Source: Halobacterium sp. CBA1132
GTDB taxonomy: Archaea > Halobacteriota > Halobacteria > Halobacteriales > Halobacteriaceae
DNA: 64,000 nucleotides
Reading direction: 5' to 3'
Assembly: GCF_001485535.1 (NCBI RefSeq)
Contig: NZ_BCMZ01000001.1
Span: forward strand, 124,001-188,000
Positions 58,918 through 64,000 of the stretch are shown here, one piece after another. Both the position numbers and the translations under genes were made by a program. Position 1 is the stretch's first letter. Each line of letters opens with the position of its first letter. Under the pieces are notes generated by a model. That model saw only the letters and a list, made by a program, of their open reading frames with translations. It was not told the origin of the DNA and searched no databases.

Positions 58918-58989
58918 GGGCTCGTAGATCAGTGGTAGATCGCTTCCTTCGCAAGGAAGAGGCCCTGGGTTCAAATCCCAGCGAGTCCA
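58918..58989 (+). tRNA. tRNA-Ala (CGC)
   Basis: A 72-nt cloverleaf. Acceptor gggctcg pairs with cgagtcc, with A as discriminator. The D arm is gatc-agtggta-gatc. The anticodon stem cttcc/ggaag encloses ttcgcaa with anticodon CGC, reading GCG alanine codons. The T arm is ctggg-ttcaaat-cccag. No intron and no encoded CCA. Several copies of its 3' end follow. Confidence 0.95.
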
Positions 58990-59330
58990 CTTCTCCAACT
59001 CTCGACCGCGAAGCGACTGGTGTGTCGCTTCGCGTCGACACGGTGTATTGGACGAGTCGGGATTTGAAGCCCTACGAGACTCGCTACGCTCGTCTCGTTC
59101 CGGGTTCAAATCCCGGCAGACTCGCGTCGCGAGTCTGCCGACCTTCGCGAAACCGTCGGTTTCGCTCAGTCCCAGCGAGTCCATTCCTTCGCTCACTTCG
59201 TTCGCTTCGTCATTCCCTCGCTGACTGTTCGCTCGCTACGCTCGCGTGAGCGAAGCGAACGCGGGCTCGAAAGAACTCGTTCTTTCGGCGCTCGCGAGAA
59301 TCCCAGCGGGTCCTGTACCCGAGTACGCAA
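58990..59330. repeat. Cluster of tRNA 3'-end remnants and hairpins
   Basis: The 16-nt end of tRNA-Ala (58974-58989) recurs at 59168-59183 with one mismatch and at 59299-59314 with two. A separate tRNA-like T arm (ccggg-ttcaaat-cccgg) is at 59100-59116. Between them are loop-conserved hairpins at 59075-59097 (cgagac/gtctcg around tcgctacgctc) and 59243-59263 (cgcgt/acgcg around gagcgaagcga), and an 11-bp stem cgcgaagcgac/gtcgcttcgcg near 59008-59035. No protein gene is credible here. This marks a worn integration site. Confidence 0.75.
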
Positions 59331-59410: not shown

Positions 59411-62400
59411 ATGAGTCAATCGACACTCGGTTCTACCCCCTACCAGAACTCGAATCTCTTCTCCGGCTACTACCTCGACGAGCGCATCTACGACCTCGAC
59501 GGCTGGGACTGCGACGAGGACGCGCGAGTGGCCTTCGAGGACCTCAAAACGCTCTGGGAGTTGGAGGGCGGCCTCGTGGACTCCTACAAGGAGGACGAGC
59601 TACTCGACGAGTGGATCGACGAGGTGCTGGATGTCCTCGGGTTCGGAACGAAGTCCGAGGCGACGCTCCCGGACAGCGGCGGGTACAACGACCGCCTGCT
59701 GTTCACCTCCGACGGAGAACGTCGCGACGCTGCACAGCGCGTCGCCGACGGTGAGGACGACGCCGACTACAAGCTCGCATCGGCGGTTCTCGAAGCCAAA
59801 CAATGGGACGCCGACTTCAGCGCCCGGTTCAGTGAAGCTCGTTCGTACCGGGACGCCTCACACCAAATCAAGTACTATCTCGAACACACGCCCGAGAACC
59901 TCAAGTGGGGCATCCTCACTGACGGGAAGAAGTGGCGACTGTACGGCACGAAAGACTACGCGACCGAGATCTACTACGAGGTCGACCTCCCCGAACTGCT
60001 CGCGACCGGCACGCTCGAACAGTTCAAGTACTTCTACGCGTTCTTCCGGCCCGACGCGTTCCGCGAGACCGCGGGCACGTCGTTCCTCGATACGGTGTGG
60101 AACGAGAGCGAGACCGCCGCCCAAGAACTCGGCGAAGACCTCCAGGACAACGTCTTCACGGCGCTGCGCGTCCTCGGCGAGGGGTTCGTGCACTCGAACG
60201 ACTTGGACATCGACCCCGACGACGAGGACGCGCGAGCGGAACTGAAAGAGCAGTCGCTGGTGTTGCTCTACCGCTTGATGTTCGTGCTGTACGCGGAGTC
60301 CCGGGGGTTGATTCACCCGGACGACGCCGACGACGAGGCGGAGTACCGCGAGCACTTCAGCCTCGACGAACTGCGCGCAGACATCCACGAGGACATCCAA
60401 GACGGCGATACCTACGAGGACTACAGCGGGTACTCGACGCAGATGTGGAGCCGGCTGCAGGACCTCTTTGGGCTCATCGATGCGGGCGAGGAGTCGTTGG
60501 ACATCCCGGCGTACAACGGCGGGCTCTTCGACGACGAGGAACACGAGTTCCTCGCGGAGAACGAGGTCGCGGACCGCTACATCGCGGAAGTCATCCACCG
60601 CCTCGGAACGACACTCGACGACGACGGGAAGTACGTCCTCGCGGACTACGCGGACTTGGACACGCGCCACCTCGGGTCGATTTACGAGGGACTGCTCGAA
60701 CACGAGTTCCGCATCGCGGGCGAACAGTACGCAGCGGTGTCGGCGGACGGCGGACAGGTGTGGCAGCCCGCGACAGAGGTGAGCGTCGCCGACGCAATCG
60801 AGACTGTCGAGGAGGGCGAACTCTACGTGGTGAACGACGACGGCGAGCGGAAAGCCACGGGCGCGTACTACACGCCGGATTACGTCGTCTCGTACATCGT
60901 CGAGGAGACCATCGACCCGCTGCTCGACGACATCAAAGCGGAGTTGGAGGCGGACGGTTTGGAGCCGTCGGAGCCGGAGTACTTCCGGCGGTTCTGGCAG
61001 TCGGTGCTCGATTTGAAGGTGTTGGACCCGGCGATGGGGTCGGCGCACTTCCTGACGAGCGCGACGGGCTACCTCACCGAGCAAGTGATGGAGGTGGTTC
61101 GCGAGCAGGAGATTCAGGGCTACGACGAGCAACACCTCCGCCGCGACATCGCCAAGGAGTGCATCTACGGCGTCGACATCAACGGAATGGCCGTCGAACT
61201 CGGGAAGCTCTCGATGTGGCTGGAGACGCTCGCCGCCGACCAGCCCCTCGCCTTCCTCGACCACCACCTCAAGGACGGGAATTCACTCGTCGGGTCGGAC
61301 ATCACGGACGTGCTCTCGGACGACGTCGACGATGACGGCGGCCAACTCACGCTGATGCAGGCGGCGGCGCGCGCCCGCAAGAACACGCTGGAGCACGTGA
61401 TGGAACTGATGCAGGAGTTGCTGGCGATGGACAACGAGTCCCTCGACGACATCAAGTCGATGGAGGACCTCTACGACGAGATTCGCGACGACCCGCTCTA
61501 CGGGCGGCTGTTCGAGATTGCGAACGTCCACACCGCCGAGGAGTTCGGTCTGGACGTCCCCGAAGGCGTCTACGAGGAGATGGCCGGCGCCATCGAGGAC
61601 GAAGACGAGTGGGCGGAGATTCGTGGCGAGGACTGGTTCGAGTCGGCGCAGGAGATGGCCGACGAGGAGGACTTCTTCCACTGGGAATTGGAGTATCCAG
61701 AGGTGTTCTTCGGGGAGGATGGGGAGAAGCGGGACGATGCAGGGTTTGACGCGGTTATTGGGAATCCGCCGTACGTGGAGATTAGTGGAAATATCGAACA
61801 GTACCTACGTACCCAATACGATGTCACCGAATATTTTGTCGATTTGTTCCACGGATTTATAGAACGAGCTATCGATCTGAACCGCCCTAATGGACAATTT
61901 AGTTATATTCTTCCAGAACCGTGGCTGACGATTGAAAACCGGGAGAAACTCCGCCACCATGTATTGGAAAATACAAACCTAAGGAAAATACTCAGAATCG
62001 AACAAGGCGTATTTCAAGATGCTACTGTTGACTCAATCATAGTCGTGGCGACAAAGGGAAGAGGAAACGATGATATCGACATCCTCGAATTAGGCGGGAC
62101 AGGATACCAAGAAACCCAGCATACTGTTTCACTTAACCAGGAGAGAATTTTGGAGAGTGATACATGCCGGATAGAAGTGGAACAAACAGCGGAGACAAAG
62201 GAGATATTTGATAAAATTCAGTCTGTATCAGTTCCGCTCCAAGACGTCGCCGAACTTGCTATTGGTGTACAGGCATATAATTCATCAAAGCATTCTAAAG
62301 AACAGATCGAAAATAGAGTTTTCCACTCCGATATAAAGAAGTCGGAAGAATATCTACCGGAAATAGCGGGAAATGATGTTTCTAGATATAACATATCATT

Positions 62401-63472
62401 TGACGGGAATAGTTGGATAAAATACGGAGATCACTTACACGACAAACGTGAATTCAGGTATCTTTCAGAGCCTAGGATATTGGTTCGCCAAATTCCCGGC
62501 AGTGGACGATATAAGATTCATGCAACGTATACTGAGAAGACATACTGCAATTACAACACAATCCTCAACGTATTACAAGATGGGGAGTACGATCTAAAGT
62601 ATATTTTAGCTTTGGTTAATTCTTCACTCATGTCTTGGGTATTTCCCAAGTTAGCGAATAGCGTTGTTAGCAATAACTTCCCAAAACTATCCGTAGTTGA
62701 CTTAGAACGACTCCCAATCAGAAAAATTGATTTCCAAAAACGGAGTGTTGCTACGCACTCTAATATTGAGGGGCAACTCAAAAACGGAAATATCGACGCA
62801 ACGAGAGATACGCATGAATCTCTTTCAAAATTGGCTGATAAGCGAATGGAGCTAGAAAGTCAACTGGGCAACTTAAACCTGTCTTTGAAAGATCACTTCG
62901 GGAACTATTCAGAAGGTTCCACTCTCGCTACAGTTGGATTCACTCAACCTCCGAAGGATTTGGCAGACTCTATTCTCCAACAAACGACCAAGGAAAAGCC
63001 AAACCTCCGAGTGGGCGAGGCTACTGTCGAGCGTGAATCCCCAAACACAGTCGAAATTAGACTGACCGCGCGTTACAAGCCCGACGAGGAGGACAAATAC
63101 GAGACTGATCAGTGGGGGTACACAGAGACTGAGCCATTACCAGCGCTCCGCATCACCGACCTCACGGAGTCTGAAGCTGACCTTGCCGAGGTGTTTATTC
63201 CAGTGGCTGTTGACGAGGCTAACGGATTCGCAAACTTCCGTGAGACCGCGACAAAAACCAACTCGCTCGTGGATAGGCTGCGAAAGCTTACTCTCCCCCG
63301 TGTCGATGACATCCGTGAAGGTCTGGAAAGTTATACCGAGACGAAAGAACGCGCCGAAGACCTGAAGGAGAAAATCGAGCGTACGGACGACCTCATCGAT
63401 AAAACCGTCTATAATCTATACGAACTAACCGATGAAGAAATTGAAATAGTTGAGGAAACGTTTGCGGACTAG
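59411..63472 (+). CDS. Type IIG restriction-modification enzyme (Eco57I-like)
   Basis: A 1353-residue fused enzyme. The N terminus has a nuclease-like PD-(D/E)xK pattern with VLEAKQW near residues 126-132. The N6-adenine methylase part shows RKATGAYYTPDYVVSYIVEE, motif I VLDPAMGSAHFLTS near 537, and motif IV NPPY near 784. The C-terminal third should hold the target-recognition domain. Such enzymes methylate and cut DNA from one chain. From about 61770 base composition turns AT-rich and uses AGA and ATA codons rare upstream, so the recognition part looks acquired separately. It lies next to a tRNA integration site. Confidence 0.9.
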   Translation: MSQSTLGSTPYQNSNLFSGYYLDERIYDLDGWDCDEDARVAFEDLKTLWELEGGLVDSYKEDELLDEWIDEVLDVLGFGTKSEATLPDSGGYNDRLLFTSDGERRDAAQRVADGEDDADYKLASAVLEAKQWDADFSARFSEARSYRDASHQIKYYLEHTPENLKWGILTDGKKWRLYGTKDYATEIYYEVDLPELLATGTLEQFKYFYAFFRPDAFRETAGTSFLDTVWNESETAAQELGEDLQDNVFTALRVLGEGFVHSNDLDIDPDDEDARAELKEQSLVLLYRLMFVLYAESRGLIHPDDADDEAEYREHFSLDELRADIHEDIQDGDTYEDYSGYSTQMWSRLQDLFGLIDAGEESLDIPAYNGGLFDDEEHEFLAENEVADRYIAEVIHRLGTTLDDDGKYVLADYADLDTRHLGSIYEGLLEHEFRIAGEQYAAVSADGGQVWQPATEVSVADAIETVEEGELYVVNDDGERKATGAYYTPDYVVSYIVEETIDPLLDDIKAELEADGLEPSEPEYFRRFWQSVLDLKVLDPAMGSAHFLTSATGYLTEQVMEVVREQEIQGYDEQHLRRDIAKECIYGVDINGMAVELGKLSMWLETLAADQPLAFLDHHLKDGNSLVGSDITDVLSDDVDDDGGQLTLMQAAARARKNTLEHVMELMQELLAMDNESLDDIKSMEDLYDEIRDDPLYGRLFEIANVHTAEEFGLDVPEGVYEEMAGAIEDEDEWAEIRGEDWFESAQEMADEEDFFHWELEYPEVFFGEDGEKRDDAGFDAVIGNPPYVEISGNIEQYLRTQYDVTEYFVDLFHGFIERAIDLNRPNGQFSYILPEPWLTIENREKLRHHVLENTNLRKILRIEQGVFQDATVDSIIVVATKGRGNDDIDILELGGTGYQETQHTVSLNQERILESDTCRIEVEQTAETKEIFDKIQSVSVPLQDVAELAIGVQAYNSSKHSKEQIENRVFHSDIKKSEEYLPEIAGNDVSRYNISFDGNSWIKYGDHLHDKREFRYLSEPRILVRQIPGSGRYKIHATYTEKTYCNYNTILNVLQDGEYDLKYILALVNSSLMSWVFPKLANSVVSNNFPKLSVVDLERLPIRKIDFQKRSVATHSNIEGQLKNGNIDATRDTHESLSKLADKRMELESQLGNLNLSLKDHFGNYSEGSTLATVGFTQPPKDLADSILQQTTKEKPNLRVGEATVERESPNTVEIRLTARYKPDEEDKYETDQWGYTETEPLPALRITDLTESEADLAEVFIPVAVDEANGFANFRETATKTNSLVDRLRKLTLPRVDDIREGLESYTETKERAEDLKEKIERTDDLIDKTVYNLYELTDEEIEIVEETFAD

Positions 63473-63534
63473 CCCTAATTAGACATTTAGTAGTCGGTGA
63501 AAGAAGAACGAGCTTAGTTGTTGGTGGGGTAAAG

Positions 63535-64000
63535 TCACGCATATATGTTCGGGGTTTTTGATTCTTGGCAAAGGTGAATGATGGCAGATTTAGCGGTTTT
63601 CCGATCAGTTGTTCCCCCAATAGTGACTTTCCCGCTGGAAAATATTATGAGCGTAGTCTCGAATTGAGGAGGACGATAAATCAGACCTGGGAATTGTTCA
63701 GGTTCGTACTCTATGTTCTCAAGCCCAAGAGTGAGGGCTAGTTCCTCCAGGTTCACCTCACGACCGAGATCTTCTACAAATACAGAAGTGGCTTGTGTGA
63801 AGTTAGGTTCAGATACATCCAACCCTATATCAGCAAGTACTCTCTCAAATTGCTGGAAGGATTGCATCAAAGAAGTTCTATCCTCTGCACCTCGAATCTG
63901 AAAAGCACCCGTCCGATAAGTTGTATACGCCGGTCCGCCCTCTTCTAATCGAACCGTGACCATTCCGGAACCGTTGAAATCCGGTTCAACTACATCACCA
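63535..64000 (-). CDS. Divergent TATA-binding-protein homologue (5' end cut by window)
   Basis: The second half reads DLGREVNLEELALTLGLENI and then EYEPEQFPGLIYRPPQFETT and IIFSSGKVTIGGTTDR, an almost standard second TBP repeat. The first repeat is degraded: VVEPDFNGSGMVTVRLEEGG stands where EPEQFPGLVYRL is expected. The reading frame continues past the window edge without an evident start, so the N terminus is missing here. It converges on the type IIG enzyme with 62 bp between. It may be an accessory TBP, or a protein using the TBP fold for another purpose. Confidence 0.82.
   Translation of the reverse strand, partial: GDVVEPDFNGSGMVTVRLEEGGPAYTTYRTGAFQIRGAEDRTSLMQSFQQFERVLADIGLDVSEPNFTQATSVFVEDLGREVNLEELALTLGLENIEYEPEQFPGLIYRPPQFETTLIIFSSGKVTIGGTTDRKTAKSAIIHLCQESKTPNIYA

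Follow-up and report, generated by a model that had tools for sequence, protein, structure and literature searches.

The tRNA-end repeats behind tRNA-Ala(CGC) in this stretch of Halobacterium DNA are one case of a family of hairpin-bearing inserts, ~100–200 bases in length, that lie directly behind haloarchaeal tRNAs. The inserts carry a copy of the end of their own host tRNA and usually, in addition, a rough mirror copy of it, and these host-matched ends suggest small mobile DNA tailored to its insertion site. Here we describe the anatomy of the units, their association with tRNA genes, the match between their arms and the host tRNA, the DNA-type covariation of their stem, their presence or absence as whole units, and the changes in their order and copy number between genomes. 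Our favored reading, which we put somewhat above even, is that the units are non-autonomous mobile DNA located at the 3′ ends of tRNAs, with tyrosine recombinases probably moving them in trans.

Results

Anatomy of the tRNA-Ala(CGC) array

The window, by which we mean the whole 64-kb stretch of Halobacterium chromosome that was analysed (G000:C1:124001-188000), encodes a ribosomal protein S10 that is 100% identical to the S10 of Halobacterium sp. KA-4, and tRNA-Ala(CGC) lies 3′ of the S10 gene. The tail 14-mer of this tRNA, TCCCAGCGAGTCCA, is found within the tRNA itself at 58976, exactly at 59170, and with two mismatches at 59301. Over the entire window, four matches with at most two mismatches were found versus 0.80 expected, the fourth (58247) being an unrelated match at chance level. 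The original prediction was that the tRNA end recurs twice in degraded form; both recurrences are present, but the first is exact and is split by a 55-bp twin-hairpin insert. The features of the array, in window positions, are as follows.

58918–58990, + strand: tRNA-Ala(CGC), the host gene (ARAGORN); its 3′ end, 58967–58989, is the segment that recurs
58990–59183, + strand: type A unit, inserted at the tRNA 3′ end (anatomy; match to model R1, described below, at genome positions 183060–183114)
59007–59034, + strand: hairpin H1, CGCGAAGCGAC / GTCGCTTCGCG (sequence anatomy)
59049–59071, + strand: inverted copy of the tRNA 3′ end, the left arm (five mismatches to the reverse complement of the tRNA end)
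59073–59098, + strand: inner hairpin H2 (DNA fold; family covariation)
59102–59114, + strand: T-arm copy GGGTTCAAATCCC, the right arm (repeat comparison)
59115–59169, + strand: twin-hairpin insert, 55 bp, between the T-arm and acceptor copies (second repeat family, conserved GACCYTCGC...GCTCAGTCCC)
59170–59183, + strand: first tRNA 3′ tail copy, exact (repeat comparison)
59184–59314, + strand: second module (P), with the second tail copy at its end (59301–59314)

The type A unit thus runs from the trailer CTTCT through H1, the inverted tRNA end, H2, and the T-arm copy to the twin-hairpin insert and the acceptor copy. The inverted partner of the T-arm copy, GGGATTTGAAGCC, lies at 59059–59071, and the 56-nt stretch from GGGATTTGAAGCC through GGGTTCAAATCCC is predicted to fold as one DNA hairpin (z = -5.6). 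A separate tRNA-like T arm had been proposed in between; the hairpin found between the tRNA and its first tail copy is instead an inverted copy of the tRNA end. The twin-hairpin insert is a second, partly independent repeat family, since it is also present at a locus of the same genome (L009) where no tRNA was found nearby. The conserved GACCYTCGC...GCTCAGTCCC pattern was noted at L009 and L007, and the loci examined contain 26 distinct matches to it, of which one or two are probably due to chance and at least one (L009) lies away from any tRNA found.

A unit family behind haloarchaeal tRNAs

Repeats of this kind are found behind many tRNAs of the genome. When the 12-base tail of each tRNA was sought in the 700 bases downstream with at most two mismatches, own-tail copies were found behind 28 of 44 tRNAs, versus 100 of 1760 in a control with the tails of other tRNAs; in the congener G093 the count was 20 of 41. 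Similarly, when the last 28 bases of each tRNA were compared with its own 600 downstream bases, about half of 41 tRNAs scored well above the flanks of other tRNAs. Among the first 30 tRNA loci one architecture recurred downstream, on each occasion with the end of the tRNA in question: trailer and H1, inverted tRNA 3′ end, imperfect hairpin H2, and tRNA 3′-end copy. These units, roughly 100–200 bp long, hold no gene and no integrase of their own.

An alignment (A1) of 30 units from this genome and named relatives, out of 39 found, was used to build a 71-position model, R1. In this genome R1 gave 37 matches, or 35 once opposite-strand duplicates were removed, of which 32 follow a tRNA of the same strand at a distance of 24–959 bases. 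In all, 23 of 43 tRNAs are matched. Random placement put a mean of 0.25 matches within 1 kb behind a tRNA, with a maximum of 3 in 2000 trials. The three remaining matches have no tRNA nearby, and all are weak or partial. Many tRNAs have no unit behind them, and presence varies between species.

Beyond this genome, R1 matches were found in 287 of 292 Halobacteria genomes and in 74 of 77 genera (E of 0.01 or better). Most of the five genomes of the class that lack a match had low candidate counts, and our guess is that these genomes are AT-rich. In a sample of 148 genomes from the phylum (E of 0.001 or better), 22 of 24 genomes of the same order were matched, and none of 124 genomes from other classes, which double as a negative control for R1 that takes no account of base composition. 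For 37 of 38 loci of matches from the class and family searches, a tRNA lies no more than 0.5 kb away on the matching side; the sole exception, in G012, is accounted for by a 2-kb tyrosine-recombinase element that sits between tRNA-Val(CAC) and its array. Finally, of 80 loci picked by means of S10, 53 had a usable tRNA hit (two of these, L072 and L116, being probably false tRNA calls), and 25 of the 53 reached a score of at least 13 for a tail copy. One region of another genome (G420:C1:229003-229533) holds five tRNA-like matches in 530 bp, perhaps a virus-borne tRNA cluster.

The original prediction treated the array as serial remnants of repeated integration at one tRNA. The presence of the same compact unit behind 23 of 43 tRNAs, and in 287 of 292 genomes of the class, gives no support to remnants peculiar to this locus, and a defined element family explains the array better than decayed islands do. 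In the general form of this explanation, large integrative elements would have entered each tRNA and decayed to stacked att fragments. It is true that integrative elements bearing tyrosine recombinases occupy tRNA ends in this genus and push older tails aside, and a Haloferax gibbonsii genome carries partial tRNAs next to full copies (PMC7921747, in excerpt). However, the unit has the same compact anatomy whatever the tRNA, genus, or family and has a covarying inner stem, random decay would not yield fragments that fit the same 71-position model, and, as described below, exactly one unit separates empty from occupied sites. The serial-remnant reading is already weakened by these data, and we regard it as unlikely.

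Gain, loss, and order of units between genomes

Two pairs of sites allow an occupied and an empty tRNA end to be compared directly. At tRNA-Asp there is a unit in this genome and none in G093, and the flank past the unit aligns with the flank behind the G093 tRNA. At tRNA-Ala, KA-4 has a single unit that the twin-hairpin insert divides, and no unit is present in G066; the flanks of the two genomes can be aligned over the T-arm, the trailer, and H1. In the unit-free G066, the trailer and H1 still lie directly behind the tRNA, and the unit accordingly includes a second trailer and H1. The duplication is ~28 bp long and extends from the T-arm into the trailer. Both pairs show a tRNA 3′ end that differs by one whole unit, either gained or lost. 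As in a site-specific element of tRNA genes, a direct repeat restores the tRNA 3′ end, and occupied as well as empty sites exist.

Across 13 Halobacterium genomes, the tRNA-Ala locus has an R1 match in 10 and none in 3 (G066, G419, and G018). The modules follow the order A-P in the window and P-A in CBA1126 and G421, and TGN-42 and G023 have A and P along with an incomplete additional A. The view of the locus as a layered att region produced by repeated integration is therefore partly right: it contains layered tRNA-end duplications of the integration type, and their copy number and order differ between species.

Match between the arms and the host tRNA

The left arms follow the host. Over 15 tRNA names, the summed score of left arm against host tRNA end was 147, compared with 102.6 (SD 8.1) for permuted hosts, and none of 5000 permutations scored as high. 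The input consisted of 23 model hits (the best 20 of 37 and three checked orphans), reduced to one per tRNA name, and the underlying model was trained mostly on units picked for matching their own tRNA. tRNA-Pro(CGG), which is absent from the R1 training set, has an unusual T-arm that its unit matches. The match between arm and tRNA is often poor outside the T-arm and is weak in several units. Right arms read GTTCAAA or variants of it.

A non-mobile origin has also to be weighed, in which the tRNA end is copied in both orientations when replication switches template, palindrome correction keeps the arms matched, and tandem exchange multiplies the units. This scheme accommodates arms that match the local tRNA, and palindrome correction is compatible with stems made of Watson-Crick pairs only. 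In addition, some tandem copies are exact, such as those at tRNA-Glu, which are 114 bp apart; these could come from duplication alone and count against a mobile reading. In contrast, the H2 core AGTCGCGCGCAGCG...GAGCGAGCACGTCT is common to different tRNAs and genera, being found at tRNA-Val here and at tRNA-Ala of Halosegnis, which calls for transfer and not local copying. Moreover, the units at L030, L164, and L168 have an extra T-loop base in the right-arm copy (TTCACAATCC or TTCAATATTC) that the left arm does not have, and thus the two arms are not kept alike by simple mutual correction. On these grounds we consider the non-mobile scheme improbable.

Covariation of the inner stem

RNAalifold assigned seven pairs to the inner stem, six of them with compensatory changes on both sides. 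In 110 distinct units the inner pairs comprise 705 Watson-Crick, 3 G-T, 6 A-C, and 25 other combinations, whereas 56 tRNAs of this genome and G093 have, in their acceptor and T stems, 24 G-T and no A-C (Fisher p = 8e-5, a guide only because the units are related by descent). The outer arms are mixed, with 61 G-T and 36 A-C pairs. RNA under selection should tolerate G-U but not A-C. As G-T and A-C are equally rare in the inner stem, unlike in the tRNA stems, the stem appears from its sequence to covary as DNA would, not RNA.

This pattern bears on the notion that the tRNA trailer contains a structured RNA that is transcribed and acts in the processing or decay of tRNA. Such an RNA would fit with units that are mostly on the same strand as the tRNA, close by, and stably folded. 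It would not account for the rarity of G-T relative to tRNA stems or for units that are missing behind many tRNAs and vary between species, and at the four loci that were searched against Rfam (L018, L022, L030, and L040), tRNA alone passed the thresholds, with no other family reported. A trailer RNA is thus very unlikely to explain the units.

The adjoining restriction segment

Two genes that adjoin the array on its right, outside the unit, had been named in the original prediction as a type IIG gene and a TBP homologue, and both identifications proved sound.

59411–63472, + strand: type IIG restriction-modification gene (Eco57I, TaqI_C; PADLOC REase_MTase_IIG, DrmMI)
63535–63999 and past the window edge (into L011), - strand: TATA-binding-protein homologue (Pfam TBP)

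Compared with G093, G066, and KA-4, the window has ~6 kb extra between the array and the conserved right flank, which begins at ~65.4 kb in window coordinates. The extra segment contains the type IIG gene, the TBP homologue, and a NAD-binding gene, the last named by eye. It is a separate, strain-specific 6-kb insert. In the comparison of content between strains that the original prediction proposed, the IIG/TBP segment is absent from relatives with otherwise syntenic flanks. Synteny of the right-hand genes in most haloarchaea would have spoken against the prediction; the genes beyond the segment are syntenic, but for IIG/TBP no convincing homologue was found in 80 named loci with flanks of up to 10 kb, one weak partial match of 106 amino acids aside.

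The prediction of a distal att copy and an integrase fared less well. In 84 kb to the right, copies of the tRNA-Ala end (at most 3 mismatches in 14 or 6 in 23) occurred only at chance level beyond the array, and no integrase was recognised by eye among ORFs of at least 120 amino acids in the first 20 kb. The segment consequently cannot be called an integrase island, and a restriction island with its boundary at the tRNA-Ala(CGC) array is unproven.

The IIG gene looks chimeric (window 61500-64000 and L011:1-574), with a GC-rich front and an AT-rich specificity and C-terminal part. GC content drops to 0.41–0.53 from ~61.5 kb to 64.25 kb, and the C-terminal 92 amino acids of the IIG protein are duplicated with 82% identity at 64299–64574, ~0.8 kb past the stop codon and beyond the TBP gene. 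The GC drop and the second C-terminal copy suggest that the specificity end was swapped for incoming DNA that brought the TBP gene too.

Discussion

The favored mobile reading can be put as a model. Insertion of a unit would leave the T-arm and acceptor end of the host tRNA duplicated at the unit's far side, and since the copy lies there, the tRNA would remain intact and its site open to another unit. The unit carries an imperfect DNA hairpin whose outer arms are inverted and direct copies of the host tRNA end, and these copies would serve as attachment cores for a recombinase. The units are most likely moved in trans by a virus- or plasmid-encoded tyrosine recombinase that targets tRNAs. This enzyme, and a circular or single-stranded intermediate, we infer.

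Elements that carry such recombinases do occur at the same sites. At L170 (G000:C1:726300-742800), a 13.3-kb element with a tyrosine recombinase gene sits at tRNA-Ala(GGC), and the old tail repeats of this tRNA are displaced beyond the far end of the element. The 2-kb element of G012 (L260:804-2015, L262), between tRNA-Val(CAC) and a type A unit, holds little besides a tyrosine recombinase; it ends in a 28-bp T-arm/acceptor copy, and an inverted acceptor copy lies near the same end. The recombinase family P0001 has matches in 178 of 194 genomes of the class. An inverted-arm layout at the tRNA end near the gene was found at 1 of 30 loci of recombinase relatives, that of G012, and the inverted copy there could belong to a unit that was already present when the element inserted next to it; the identity of the enzyme therefore stays a matter of inference. 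We do not claim a link of the units to P0001 as the one integrase family, given the inverted layout at 1 of 30 loci. Three exact patterns found no units in viral contigs, and a 301-bp query had no match in phage records. The same 301-bp query gave one match among plasmids, on a Natronorubrum replicon of 828 kb, where it follows a tRNA-Val-like sequence. With the viral and phage searches empty and the sole plasmid match beside a tRNA-like sequence, no free or vector-borne form was seen.

A bolder version of the model, which we think doubtful, is an integron-like archaeal system in which the cassettes would be bare DNA hairpins and every tRNA gene a landing site. The inverted and direct arms of the folded strand would rebuild the double-stranded attachment site recognised by a tyrosine recombinase that targets tRNAs, the unit would enter as a hairpin, and retargeting would proceed via arms that derive from the new host tRNA or are selected for their fit to it.

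If the mobile reading is right, almost all of the class Halobacteria carries a family of small mobile elements at the 3′ ends of its tRNAs, and this family would be unnamed in the part of the literature covered by our searches, whose titles and abstracts contain no description of it. The family would explain the partial tRNAs of haloarchaeal genomes, its units would mark entry sites of proviruses and defence genes, and it would offer a natural system for studying how elements match their ends to targets. Tandem tRNA ends behind haloarchaeal tRNAs are, by themselves, no proof of past islands.

Several known systems share features with the units. The single strand of an integron attC site folds as an imperfect hairpin in which the outer arms pair and mismatches lie inside; the site has GTTRRRY core boxes and occurs in tandem arrays of changing order by a fixed site. 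By this general description, the units resemble attC sites in their imperfect hairpin, paired outer arms, tandem arrays, and changing order. The likeness extends to covarying, DNA-like stems but is one of form only: the right arms do not have GTTRRRY boxes, the arms are tRNA T-arm sequence and not an integron core, the units have no cassette gene, and no integron recombinase was identified.

Within the Halobacteria, integrated elements with XerC/D-type or SNJ2-type tyrosine recombinases are located at tRNA 3′ ends, and a repeat of 13 bp has been reported for one SNJ2 relative (PMC8371274; PMC7921747, both in excerpt). Like the elements in these excerpts, the units sit at the 3′ end of a tRNA that stays intact and have a far-side direct repeat of the tRNA end. 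Unlike them, the units are ~100–200 bp long and geneless, have a repeat of ~28 bp (T-arm into trailer) versus 13 bp, and possess an inverted, host-matched arm and the H2 core. Haloquadratum walsbyi has PATEs, MITEs, and SMRs, as well as partial tRNAs tied to prophages; PATEs and SMRs make no target duplication, and the MITEs have terminal repeats like those of known transposons (PMC3119063, 2011, in excerpt). Judged by that excerpt, the units are likewise short, non-coding, hairpin-bearing haloarchaeal repeats without an enzyme of their own, but their ends copy the host tRNA and their target is the tRNA 3′ end. Because the outer arms follow the host tRNA, they do not represent the terminal inverted repeats of a known transposase family, as expected for MITEs, and the ~28-bp duplication from T-arm to trailer sets the units apart from PATE or IS605-type elements. 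Lastly, 11 partial tRNAs are reported for Haloferax gibbonsii LR2-5, and several of them directly adjoin a full copy (PMC7921747). The unit, the hairpin, the inverted arm, and a class-wide family are absent from that account as excerpted, and the partial tRNAs of H. gibbonsii, viewed there as remnants, are probably the same phenomenon that is described here.
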